From positions 1 to 55,172 of the forward strand of contig JAICXH010000006.1 of assembly GCA_025981645.1 (NCBI GenBank): a stretch of DNA of 55,172 nucleotides, given 5' to 3'. Source of the DNA: Burkholderiales bacterium (GTDB taxonomy: Bacteria; Pseudomonadota; Gammaproteobacteria; Burkholderiales; Casimicrobiaceae). How positions within the stretch are numbered: the first letter of the stretch is position 1; the number at the start of each line of letters is the position of its first letter. Positions 7,511 through 12,042 of the stretch are shown here, piece after piece. The translations under genes were made by a program, and so were the position numbers. The notes beneath the pieces were generated by a model that ran no database searches, was not told the origin of the DNA, and saw only the letters and a list, made by a program, of their open reading frames with translations.

Positions 7511-7960
7511 ATGACTCGGCAAGCCATCCAGAGTCCCGACGCGCCAGCGGCGATCGGGCCTTACTCGCAGGCGATCCGCGCCGGCGACATGCTTTATCTC
7601 TCGGGCCAGATTCCGCTCGACCCGAAGACGATGCAACTCGTCGACGGCGTCGACGCGCAGGCGCACCAGGTGTTTCGCAACCTGCGCGCGGTCGCCGCGG
7701 CGGCCGGCGCCGCGCTGAACGACAGCGTCAAGCTGACGATCCTGCTCGTCGACCTCGCCGACTTCGCGAAGGTGAACGAGATCATGGCAGGATACTTCGA
7801 GCCGCCTTACCCGGCGCGTGCCACCTACCAGGTTGCGGCATTGCCGCGCGGGGCGAGGATCGAGGTCGAGGCGATCGTCGCGCTGCCGAAGGTCGCCCCG
7901 CCCGAGGTCCCGCAGCAGACCGGTTGGAACGAAGCCTTCGATCAGACCAAGGGCGCGTGA
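7511..7960 (+). CDS. ridA: RidA family enamine/imine deaminase
   Basis: 149 residues, ATG preceded by AGGAG with seven-base spacing. It shows the RidA pattern: an N-terminal PAAIGPYSQAI, the YLSGQIPLDP strand, and the C-terminal ARATYQVAALPRGARIEVEA containing the active-site arginine and glutamate. RidA hydrolyses reactive 2-aminoacrylate-type intermediates made by PLP enzymes. At 149 residues it is about 20 longer than usual, from a C-terminal tail. Its stop overlaps the recG start (GTGA), so the two genes are translationally coupled. Confidence 0.93.
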   Translation: MTRQAIQSPDAPAAIGPYSQAIRAGDMLYLSGQIPLDPKTMQLVDGVDAQAHQVFRNLRAVAAAAGAALNDSVKLTILLVDLADFAKVNEIMAGYFEPPYPARATYQVAALPRGARIEVEAIVALPKVAPPEVPQQTGWNEAFDQTKGA

Positions 7961-10026
7961 GCGTCGGCAACGCGAAGCGCGGCGACGCGCTCGCGGACAA
8001 GCTGGCGCGCATCGGCGTGCTGCGCGAGGAAGACCTCGTGCTGCATCTGCCGCTGCGCTACGAGGACCACACGCGCATCGTGCCGCTCGACGCCGTTCGG
8101 GCGGGGCTCACCGTGCAGACCGAGGGCGTCGTCGCGAGCGCACAAGTGCAGTTTCGCCCGCGCCGGCAGCTCGTGTGCCTCGTGCGTGCGCCCGGCGGCG
8201 GCGACGCCACGCTGACGCTGCGCTTCTTCTCGTTCTACCCGAGCCATCTGAAGGCGCTCGCAATGGGCACGCGCGTGCGTGTCTACGGCGACGTGCGCGA
8301 CGGTCCGTACGGCCCCGAGATCGTGCACCCGCAGTTTCACGTTGTCGGTGACGATGCGCCGCTCCCCGACCGGCTGACGCCCGTGTATCCGACGACCGGG
8401 GGTCTCGGGCAGGAGCGGCTGCGCAAGGCGGTCGCGCGCGCGATCGCTGCCGACCCCACGCGAACCGCCGAGGTCTTGCCTGCGGTGTTTCTGCGCAAGA
8501 ACGGGCTGTGGTCCTTCCACGATGCGCTCGCCTTCCTCCATGCACCGCCGCCGCGGCTCGCACCGGCGGCTGCGCGCGCGCTCGCCGACCGGACGCATCC
8601 GGCGTGGACGCGGGTCAAGTTCGACGAACTGCTCGCGCAGCAACTGTCGCTGAAGGCGCACCGCCGTTCGCGTGCGGCGCGGCGCGCGCCGGTCCTGACG
8701 GGTACCGGTGCCCTGACCCGTGCGCTGCTCGAGCGCGTCGGCTTCCGTCTCACTGCGGCACAGCAGCGCGTTTGGCGCGAGATCGCCGCCGACCTGAAGC
8801 GCTCGATGCCGATGCAGCGCCTTCTTCAGGGCGATGTTGGCTCCGGGAAGACGGTGATTGCCGCGCTCGCCGCGCTGCAGGCGATCGAGAGCGGACGCCA
8901 GGTCGCGTTCATGGCGCCGACCGAACTCCTCGCCGAGCAACACTACCGCAAGCTCGCCGGGTGGCTCGCGGGCGTCGGCATCGAGATCGCGTGGCTTTCG
9001 GGCTCGCTCCCCGCGAAAGCGCGCCGCAAGGCGCGGGAGGGGCTCGCGAGTGGCGCCGTGCACTTTGCGATCGGAACGCACGCACTGTTCCAGGAGGGTG
9101 TGGCGATGCCGCGCCTCGGCCTCGCCATCATCGACGAGCAGCACCGCTTCGGTGTCGCGCAGCGGCTGGCGCTTCGCGATCGCGGCATCGCCGACGCGCA
9201 CCAGTTGATGATGAGCGCGACGCCGATTCCGCGCACGCTCGCGATGACTTTCTATGCCGACCTCGACGTGTCGGTTCTGGACGAGATGCCTCCCGGTCGC
9301 GCGCCGGTCGCGACGCGGCTCGTGAGCGAAAAGCGCCGTGCGGAGATCATCGCGTGGGTCGGCCGAATGTGCCGCGACGGCCGGCAGGCGTACTGGGTCT
9401 GCCCGCTGATCGAGGAATCGGAGAAGCTCGAATTGCAGACCGCGGTCGCGCTGCACGCCGAGCTCGTCGCGACCTGGAGCGGGACCGAGCCGCCGATTGC
9501 AGTCGGTCTCGTGCACGGGCGGATGAAGCCCGACGAGAAGGCCGCGGCGATGGATGCCTTCGCCCGTGGCGAGACCGCGGTGCTGGTGGCGACGACGGTG
9601 ATCGAGGTCGGGGTCGACGTGCCGAACGCGTCGATCATGGTGATCGAGCACGCCGAGCGCTTCGGTCTCGCGCAGCTCCACCAGCTTCGCGGACGTGTCG
9701 GCAGGGGCGCCGCGCAGAGCACCTGCGTGCTGTTGTTCGAGGATCCGCTGACCGCTGCGGCGAAGGCGCGACTCAAAGTCGTCTACGAATCGAACGACGG
9801 CTTCGAGATTGCGCGCCACGATCTCGCGATCCGCGGGCCAGGCGAATTCCTCGGTGCGCGGCAGTCGGGCGTGCCGCTGTTGCGCTTCGCCGATCTCGAG
9901 CGCGACGTCGATCTCATCGAGCGCGCGCGTGATGCAGCGGCAGAGCTCCTGCAATCGTCTCCGGCGGCTGCTGCGCGCCACCTCGACCGTTGGCTCGGCG
10001 GCCGGCAGGACTTCATCAAGGCGTAG
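7957..10026 (+). CDS. recG: ATP-dependent DNA helicase RecG
   Basis: 689 residues, the usual RecG length. The start is the GTG that overlaps the ridA stop; a longer reading upstream only covers antisense of lldD. An N-terminal wedge/OB region (LPLRYEDHTR) is followed by helicase motif I GDVGSGKT near residue 290, the DEQH box near 392 (IIDEQHRFGV), MSATPIPRTLAM (motif III), and LRGRVGRG (motif VI). RecG remodels stalled replication forks and Holliday junctions. It is the second gene of the ridA-recG unit. A GC-rich hairpin at 10033-10049 follows the stop. Confidence 0.97.
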   Translation: MSVGNAKRGDALADKLARIGVLREEDLVLHLPLRYEDHTRIVPLDAVRAGLTVQTEGVVASAQVQFRPRRQLVCLVRAPGGGDATLTLRFFSFYPSHLKALAMGTRVRVYGDVRDGPYGPEIVHPQFHVVGDDAPLPDRLTPVYPTTGGLGQERLRKAVARAIAADPTRTAEVLPAVFLRKNGLWSFHDALAFLHAPPPRLAPAAARALADRTHPAWTRVKFDELLAQQLSLKAHRRSRAARRAPVLTGTGALTRALLERVGFRLTAAQQRVWREIAADLKRSMPMQRLLQGDVGSGKTVIAALAALQAIESGRQVAFMAPTELLAEQHYRKLAGWLAGVGIEIAWLSGSLPAKARRKAREGLASGAVHFAIGTHALFQEGVAMPRLGLAIIDEQHRFGVAQRLALRDRGIADAHQLMMSATPIPRTLAMTFYADLDVSVLDEMPPGRAPVATRLVSEKRRAEIIAWVGRMCRDGRQAYWVCPLIEESEKLELQTAVALHAELVATWSGTEPPIAVGLVHGRMKPDEKAAAMDAFARGETAVLVATTVIEVGVDVPNASIMVIEHAERFGLAQLHQLRGRVGRGAAQSTCVLLFEDPLTAAAKARLKVVYESNDGFEIARHDLAIRGPGEFLGARQSGVPLLRFADLERDVDLIERARDAAAELLQSSPAAAARHLDRWLGGRQDFIKA

Positions 10027-10032
10027 CGACGT

Positions 10033-10049
10033 GCCGCGGCCCGCGCGGC
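10033..10049. repeat. GC-rich hairpin downstream of recG
   Basis: Perfect 6-bp stem GCCGCG/CGCGGC with a 5-nt loop, 7 bp after the recG stop and 100 bp before the RAYT-like gene. There is no T-run, so it is not a standard terminator; a REP-type palindrome is a possibility. Confidence 0.4.
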
Positions 10050-10149
10050 GGAATGTCGCGGGAGTCGGCCAAAGGTCTGATTTCGTCCGCAGCAGGCTTC
10101 GATCAGCATCGGCAACCATCGACGAGGTTCGAGTCGAGAAGGTTCGACG

Positions 10150-10698
10150 ATGCCGACCGACCGTTCGCAGCCCTGGCATATCGCTGCCGTCACGCAAGGA
10201 GGGCGGCCGACCTTCGCGCGCTTCGCTGCGGGCGCGGCGGTCGGTTGCGAGCTCGCGCTGTTGCGCTCGGCCGGCCTGTGGGACGTGCTCGCCTGGGTCC
10301 TCCTTCCTGCCCGCCTCGAGGCGGTGATCGCGCCGCTGCGCGCGCGCCTCGACGACACGGTGCCGCGGTTTCTCGCCCGCGCTGGCACCCGCGTCGCGCA
10401 GGTCGAGGACGACCCACGCCCGGTCTGGGCCGACCGCTTCGGCTGGCGGCCGCTCGCCGATGAGGGCGAGGCCGAAGCCGTCGCGCGCGCGCTCCTCCGC
10501 AAGCCGCTTCGTGCGGAGCTCGTCGAGCGGCTTGCCGACTATCCGTTCTGGGACAGCGTCTGGCTCGGCGCCCCGGCGCGCCCGCCGGCGCTTCCGGGCC
10601 CGGTGTGCACCATCCCCCTCGCCGCGACGGCCTGCCTGCCGTCGCTTCCCGACCGCCGCCCGCGCGCGGCCGCGCACGGTCTCGAGGCGGTTCTTTGA
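10150..10698 (+). CDS. RAYT-like (REP-associated Y1 transposase family) protein lacking catalytic residues
   Basis: 182 residues. The layout follows REP-associated tyrosine transposases: an N-terminal strand and GGRPTFARF, the core strand AWVLLP, a VWADRFGWRPLADEGEA segment, a helix VARALLRKPLRAELV, and LADYPFWDSVWLG. In active members AWVLMPDHxH carries the HUH metal-binding pair and the helix reads ARYxxxNPxRAGLV with the nucleophilic tyrosine. Here those positions are R55 and E57, and A114, and the conserved Asn is K118. The frame is otherwise intact, with GC and codon use like its neighbours. This suggests a domesticated or inactive derivative whose role, if any, is not DNA cleavage. The last 40 residues are Pro/Ala-rich. 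The family call comes from by-eye alignment; function is unknown. Confidence 0.6.
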   Translation: MPTDRSQPWHIAAVTQGGRPTFARFAAGAAVGCELALLRSAGLWDVLAWVLLPARLEAVIAPLRARLDDTVPRFLARAGTRVAQVEDDPRPVWADRFGWRPLADEGEAEAVARALLRKPLRAELVERLADYPFWDSVWLGAPARPPALPGPVCTIPLAATACLPSLPDRRPRAAAHGLEAVL

Positions 10699-10742
10699 CC
10701 CAAATCAGATACTTGCCGTCGATGCCCGACGTCGTCCTGCGC

Positions 10743-10748
10743 TACAAT
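10743..10748 (+). promoter_or_regulatory. Candidate -10 box (TACAAT) of the hemA promoter
   Basis: TACAAT sits 25 bp upstream of the hemA ATG. TTGCCG at 10713-10718 is too far away (24 bp) to be a normal -35. Confidence 0.45.
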
Positions 10749-10773: not shown

Positions 10774-12042
10774 ATGGCGCTCTACACGCTTGGCCTCAGC
10801 CACACGACCGCCCCGCTCGACGTCCGCGAGCGGGTCGCGTTCGCGCCCGAGGCCGTCACCGGCGCGCTGCGCGAGATCACGTCGCGGCACATGGTGCGCG
10901 AGGCGGCGATCCTGTCGACCTGCAACCGCACCGAGGTCTATTTCGACGGCGGCGAGCCGCGCGCGGTCGCGCGCTGGCTCGAGGACGCGCGGGGCATCCC
11001 GCCGGCGACGCTCGACCCCTACACGTACACGCTGCCCGATGATCGCGCGGTAACCCACGCGTTCCGCGTCGCGAGCGGCCTCGATTCGATGGTGCTCGGC
11101 GAGCCGCAGATTCTCGGCCAGATGAAGCAGGCGGTTCGCTCGGCCGAGGCGGCGGGCTCGCTCGGTCTCATCCTCAACCGGCTGTTCCAGCGCAGCTTCG
11201 CGGTCGCCAAGAATGTGCGCACGCAGACCGACATCGGCAGCGCGTCGATCTCGATGGCCGCCGCAGCGGTCAAGCTCACCGAGCGCATTTTCCCGTCACT
11301 CGCCGACCAGCGGCTGCTGCTCGTCGGCGCCGGCGAAATGATCGAGCTCGCCGCCACGCACTTCGCCGCACGGCGCCCGCAGTCGATCACCGTCGCGAAC
11401 CGCACGCTCGAGCGCGGCCAGAAGCTCGCCCAGCGTTTCGGCGCCGACGCGATCACGTTGGCCGAGCTCGCGAGCCGGCTCGCGCAGTTCGACATCATCG
11501 TTACCTGCACGGCGAGCACGCTGCCGATCATCGGCAAGGGCACGCTCGAGCGCGTCGTGCACATGCGGCGTCACGCCCCGGTCGCGATCGTCGATCTCGG
11601 CGTTCCGCGCGACGTCGAGGCCGAGGCCGCCGGGCTCGACGATGTGTTCCTGTTCAGCATCGATGACCTCTCCGAGATCGTGCAGGGCAACCAGCAGATC
11701 CGTCGCGAAGCCGTTGCCCAGGCCGAAGAGATGATTGCCGCACAGGCCGCGCACTTCATCCAGTGGCTGCAGGGGCGCTCGGTGGTTCCGACGATCGCCG
11801 CGCTGTCGCGGCATCACGACGCGTTGCGTCGTGCCGAAGTCGATCGCGCGCGCAGGCACCTCGCCGCAGGAGCGGAGCCCGAAGCGGTGCTGGAGGCGCT
11901 CGCGCGAGGGCTTTCGAGCAAGCTGCTGCACGCGCCGCTCGCGGCGCTGAACGCGGCCGGCGACACCGAGCGCGCCCAGATGACTGCGCTGTTCGAGCGC
12001 GTCTACGGCCTGCCGGGATCGGCCGGCGACGACGAAGCCTAG
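10774..12042 (+). CDS. hemA: Glutamyl-tRNA reductase
   Basis: 422 residues; the ATG of MALYTLGLSHTTAP is the family start. The catalytic cysteine C50 lies in STCNRTEVYFD. The NADPH-binding Rossmann domain (LLLVGAGEMIELAA) and a helical dimerisation C-terminus follow. The enzyme reduces glutamyl-tRNA to glutamate-1-semialdehyde, the first committed step of C5-pathway tetrapyrrole synthesis. It heads the hemA-prfA-prmC cluster common in proteobacteria. hemW, hemC, hemD, hemX and hemY lie within the next 24 kb. Confidence 0.97.
   Translation: MALYTLGLSHTTAPLDVRERVAFAPEAVTGALREITSRHMVREAAILSTCNRTEVYFDGGEPRAVARWLEDARGIPPATLDPYTYTLPDDRAVTHAFRVASGLDSMVLGEPQILGQMKQAVRSAEAAGSLGLILNRLFQRSFAVAKNVRTQTDIGSASISMAAAAVKLTERIFPSLADQRLLLVGAGEMIELAATHFAARRPQSITVANRTLERGQKLAQRFGADAITLAELASRLAQFDIIVTCTASTLPIIGKGTLERVVHMRRHAPVAIVDLGVPRDVEAEAAGLDDVFLFSIDDLSEIVQGNQQIRREAVAQAEEMIAAQAAHFIQWLQGRSVVPTIAALSRHHDALRRAEVDRARRHLAAGAEPEAVLEALARGLSSKLLHAPLAALNAAGDTERAQMTALFERVYGLPGSAGDDEA

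Follow-up and report, generated by a model that had tools for sequence, protein, structure and literature searches.

The gene that lies directly upstream of hemA in the window, by which we mean the whole stretch of 55,172 nucleotides analyzed, descends from a REP-associated tyrosine transposase (RAYT), a DNA-cutting enzyme, whose catalytic residues were lost in the common ancestor of five species, and which has since been under purifying selection, inherited vertically and fixed in its place at hemA. Because the defining catalytic features were tested for and found absent, we describe its product as a RAYT-derived pseudoenzyme, not as a RAYT transposase. With moderate confidence, we propose that the HUH scaffold is used without cleavage, most likely in binding a nucleic acid other than REPs. 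RAYTs have been described as domesticated transposases, and their benefit to the host is usually assumed to come through DNA cleavage and REPs.

In the window, the gene is flanked by recG, which ends at 10026, and by hemA, the first gene of heme synthesis (table 1). The original prediction had given 10033 as the gene start; this position falls inside the gap between recG and the ATG and is not the start, which lies at the ATG itself. The three stretches by which the protein had been recognized (AWVLLP, RKPLRAELV, and LADYPFWDSVWL) all belong to the same plus-strand open reading frame, and R55, E57, and A114 are exactly the residues that had been reported.

Table 1. Coordinates of the RAYT homologue and its surroundings in the window
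Feature	Position	Strand	Description
Predicted catalytically dead RAYT homologue	10150..10698	+	182 aa, ATG start
HUH-like core and tail			Core at about residues 9–138; tail (145–182) variable, Pro/Ala-rich
AGAAGG, Shine-Dalgarno-like	10137..10142	+	7 nt before ATG
Codons 55–57 (R-L-E)	10312..10320	+	Position of the HUH motif, from alignment
Codon 114 (Ala)	10489..10491	+	Position of the catalytic Tyr, from alignment
Codon 118 (Lys)	10501..10503	+	Where the class-2 signature Y---NP has its Asn, from alignment
FNR/ANR-like box TTGACCCAAATCAG	10695..10708	+	hemA promoter; overlaps the stop codon of the RAYT homologue
-10-like TACAAT	10743..10748	+	Upstream of hemA
hemA (glutamyl-tRNA reductase)	10774..12042	+	Conserved downstream neighbor

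Homology to RAYTs is borne out both by profile and by predicted structure. The NCBIfam profile NF047646 (REP_Tyr_transpos) matches the protein with an E-value of 1.5e-12 and 47.7 bits, which falls under the equivalog cut-off of 80 bits, and a profile built from the wider family retrieves 4ER8, the structure of E. coli TnpA-REP in complex with a REP hairpin, at 2.2e-14. Of the two kinds of profile proposed for recognizing the protein, the RAYT profile thus detects it while Pfam Y1_Tnp does not; a search of PHROGs gave no match. A match to Pfam SH3_18 (E 0.055), under the cut-off and present in one of the five clade members, was set aside as chance. The gene is the sole RAYT match in its genome, which is 87% complete, in line with the single copy predicted. 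AlphaFold2 run on a 35-sequence alignment, made of the five clade members described below and 30 comparison RAYTs drawn from the family, the order and elsewhere, predicted a core in which most residues have a pLDDT above 90. The best solved match to this model is again 4ER8 (Foldseek 1.6e-7; VIA Z 14.2, rmsd 3.5, 138 residues), so that the overlay on E. coli TnpA-REP suggested beforehand agrees with the predicted fold; it is followed by the IS608 and ISDra2 transposases (Z 12–13) and by Thg1 proteins (Z 7–10). With the five clade sequences only, AlphaFold2 gave a pLDDT of 38.6 and no usable model, hence the fold model depends in part on the active relatives included in the larger alignment.

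The protein shares with RAYT/TnpA-REP proteins of Proteobacterial groups 2 and 3 (subclasses 2.2 and 2.5), and with 4ER8, profile homology, the same predicted fold and the same core length; as in these proteins, the gene is single-copy and vertically inherited, and A112-R113 (nearly), P119-L120-R121-A122, and DYPFWDSxW are kept. Unlike them, it lacks the HUH motif, the Tyr and the Asn of "NP", has Q95, D100, and the conserved helix Lys positions replaced, and displays an extra variable tail, a fixed place at hemA and no REPs in the 12% of the genome sampled. The TnpA transposases of IS200/IS605 (IS608, ISDra2) have the HUH/ferredoxin-like fold in common with the model but, unlike them, the protein has no catalytic residues, lies outside any mobile element and has no relatives that we could find in viral contigs. 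Thg1 and Thg1-like tRNA guanylyltransferases align with it over about 128 residues of a palm/ferredoxin-like core, a resemblance of fold only, weaker than the transposase matches, for which we found no sequence relation.

Among the 22 genomes of the genus, we identified orthologs in four others, with 50–74% identity, which gives a clade of five species, all represented by draft genomes (G000, G018, G016, G005, and G011). The residue losses noticed in the window recur in all four orthologs and in none of the 30 other aligned RAYTs: the HUH position reads R-[LF]-[ED] in the five members and H-x-H in the 30 others; the position of the catalytic Tyr, part of the class-2 signature Y---NP (PMC6006769), is occupied by A, M, E, E, and E; and that of the Asn by K, K, R, Q, and R, whereas Tyr and Asn are both retained in the comparison set. 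With both histidines of the HUH motif, the Tyr and the Asn all replaced in five of five sequences, the protein is, as originally predicted, probably catalytically dead. The simplest reading of this shared absence is that the ancestor already lacked catalysis, the differences among the five having arisen later. In the gene tree, the five sequences form one clade with 100/100 support; its stem is longer than 1.5 changes per column, the median of the end branches being 0.41. They score 262–285 bits against their own profile, and a wider search of 399 genomes of the order and 369 of the class yielded no further member, the next best match scoring 98 bits; the clade was thus found in five species of one genus only. 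Further matches from the order and family that were aligned retain the HUH motif and the Tyr, those from the class being judged by score only. In the HemA tree, too, the five species group together (97/96), and their branching is compatible with that of the RAYT tree, which argues for a single origin followed by vertical descent, as the original prediction had it.

Some former active-site positions are newly invariant instead of random, and R55 together with the acidic residue at 57 could in principle make a new site, which would suit a protein that had kept nuclease or phosphotransferase activity through substitute residues. We hold this to be most improbable, since the three canonical positions contain neither His nor Tyr nor Asn in any member, position 114 varies between A, M, and E, replacing the Tyr by Phe inactivates three TnpA-REP proteins (PMC8266576), and we found no active HUH enzyme lacking these residues in the literature searched.

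The core of the protein is under purifying selection, weaker than that acting on hemA. Differences at codon positions 1/2/3 amount to 18/17/51 between G000 and G018 (chi-square p 2.4e-8), 13/10/36 between G016 and G011 (p 2.5e-6), and 23/23/54 between G005 and G011 (p 1e-6). The NG86 omega is about 0.2–0.3, with bootstrap ranges of 0.12–0.33, 0.12–0.33, and 0.18–0.43 for these pairs, respectively, and that of hemA in the same pairs is 0.08–0.10. The claim that the frame has been retained open is supported, with an omega of about 0.2. A decaying RAYT pseudogene, whose frame would stay open only through the GC-richness of the genome, could be suspected from the many long spurious open reading frames found in GC-rich DNA here, from the loss of every catalytic residue, and from the tail after residue 144, which is variable and, in G018 and G011, repeat-expanded. 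However, we consider such a pseudogene very unlikely. In independent pairs, changes at the third position of this frame are in excess by a factor of more than two, the upper bootstrap bound of omega is 0.33–0.43, 59 positions are invariant across the five species although their HemA proteins diverge by as much as 17%, and none of the five cores, those of the four relatives included, contains a stop or a frameshift. The tail repeats themselves, short tandem units of the PVRAPV... and VAAIR-VAAIQ... kinds in G018 (locus L077) and G011 (L080), are species-specific and look as if they were expanding independently between species. A 911-aa open frame is also found antisense to recG and the RAYT homologue (window 7942–10677, minus strand); as the codon-position pattern favors the plus-strand frame for the RAYT part, this antisense frame is most likely an effect of high GC. 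On the simplest reading, a RAYT located at hemA in the ancestor of the five species lost both HUH histidines, the nucleophilic Tyr and the metal-ligand Asn, changed in a burst, and has since been under purifying selection and inherited vertically, always directly upstream of hemA.

The residues that read DNA in active relatives have changed too. In E. coli TnpA-REP, Q95, D100, and R104 touch the GTAG, and K82, on helix alpha-3, touches the hairpin (PMC8266576). In all five clade members the Q95 and D100 positions hold A/D and W, respectively, and the conserved helix Lys next to K82 is replaced by Leu. On the old DNA-binding helix (residues 67–86), the conserved Lys and Arg are gone and R77 and R81 form a new invariant Arg pair, one turn apart; newly invariant or near-invariant are also R55 and D/E57, where the HUH motif used to be, and W99-R100-P101, on the former GTAG-contact strand. 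The core has a net charge of 0 to +3, no more basic than that of active relatives.

In a 332 kb sample, corresponding to 12% of the genome, no 16-mer occurs in more than four copies, N runs excepted, and GTAG-led hairpins are not enriched (6.1% vs 5.0–6.0%); in none of the five clade genomes is the gene bordered by a pair of REP-like elements. Judging by this 12%, the genome is thus unlikely to hold REPs in the usual numbers. The GC palindrome at 10033, pointed out earlier as lying just upstream, proved unremarkable and was rejected as a REP: it has a single exact copy in the 332 kb, and its 29 near matches are at chance level, 13% of shuffled patterns reaching 29. No perfect hairpin stem of at least 7 was found upstream of the gene in G000.

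With the GTAG and hairpin contacts lost and no REP family in the 12% sample, binding of canonical REPs is unlikely. The DNA-binding part of the original suggestion is therefore not borne out, REP contacts being replaced, the core near-neutral, the sample devoid of a REP family and the palindrome ordinary. As the core is not basic and REP contacts are lost, any nucleic-acid binding would be a guess from the predicted fold. The same losses and near-neutral charge, the new invariants R55, D/E57, and W99-R100-P101 at former catalytic or GTAG-contact positions, and the linkage to hemA would also suit a ferredoxin-like scaffold serving a role other than nucleic-acid binding, for example, binding of a small molecule or protein tied to heme supply. 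We consider such a role rather unlikely: its ligand or partner is hypothetical, two invariant Arg stand on helix 67–86, and the standout structural neighbors of the model, transposases and Thg1, are all nucleic-acid proteins. We favor a scaffold of HUH/ferredoxin-like type that would now work non-catalytically, most likely on a nucleic acid other than REPs.

In each of the five clade genomes, the gene sits immediately upstream of hemA and has the same orientation. Its own upstream neighbor is recG in G000 and G018, whereas G016, G005, and G011 have a divergently oriented SoxC-like gene there (the names SoxC-like, CPBP-protease-like and DUF4142-like were given by inspection). Preservation between recG and hemA, as first described, thus applies to two of the five genomes, and its recG side fails in the other three. 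In five other species of the genus, the recG–hemA gap measures about 140–160 bp and holds no comparable gene. In G013 and G017 (loci L081 and L082), the pair that is sister to the clade, the gap is occupied by an oppositely oriented CPBP-protease-like gene. A DUF4142-like gene occupies it in G008 (L085), and the gap appears to be a place of repeated insertion in the genus.

An FNR/ANR-like box is present in 9 of the 20 hemA loci of the genus, namely those of the clade and of G013, G017, G020, and G009, and its occurrence in the last four indicates that it is probably older than the RAYT homologue at the locus. The box starts 48 nt before TACAAT in the window; across the clade and in G013, the distance from its start to a -10-like TA[AC]AAT is 47–48 nt. 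Three genomes have the box overlapping the stop codon of the RAYT homologue, and in two others the frame reads through it. Judged by its sequence, it suggests that hemA is under oxygen control in this lineage. In G018, G016, and G005 (L077, L078, and L079), the presumed leader of hemA, downstream of the -10-like site, contains GC-rich hairpins with perfect stems; perfect stems of at least 7 are absent from that of G000 and G011, and scans of the region against Rfam and for terminators gave no match.

Since hemA has promoter-like elements of its own downstream of the gene, the linkage may be passive. On the other hand, that the linkage survives a differing upstream side would be consistent, at low confidence, with a protein that acts on the expression or use of hemA, and control of hemA by the RAYT homologue is possible. 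The more specific proposal of a domesticated, non-cleaving HUH protein dedicated to regulating the hemA operon, which would bind hemA DNA or RNA and tune the entry into tetrapyrrole synthesis, we regard as doubtful.

We found no description of a conserved, catalytically dead RAYT in the literature searched, and these data suggest a non-cutting role for such a protein that is apparently undescribed. A large survey of TnpA-Y1 proteins published in 2018 recruited its sequences with Pfam Y1_Tnp and limited its tree to those with HuH and Y (PMC6006769); as Y1_Tnp misses the RAYT homologue, proteins of this kind are easily overlooked. A lineage that lacks both catalysis and REP recognition, and is nevertheless under selection, would mean that the RAYT scaffold can be useful to its host without either, and the clade offers a small, testable system for finding what that use may be.
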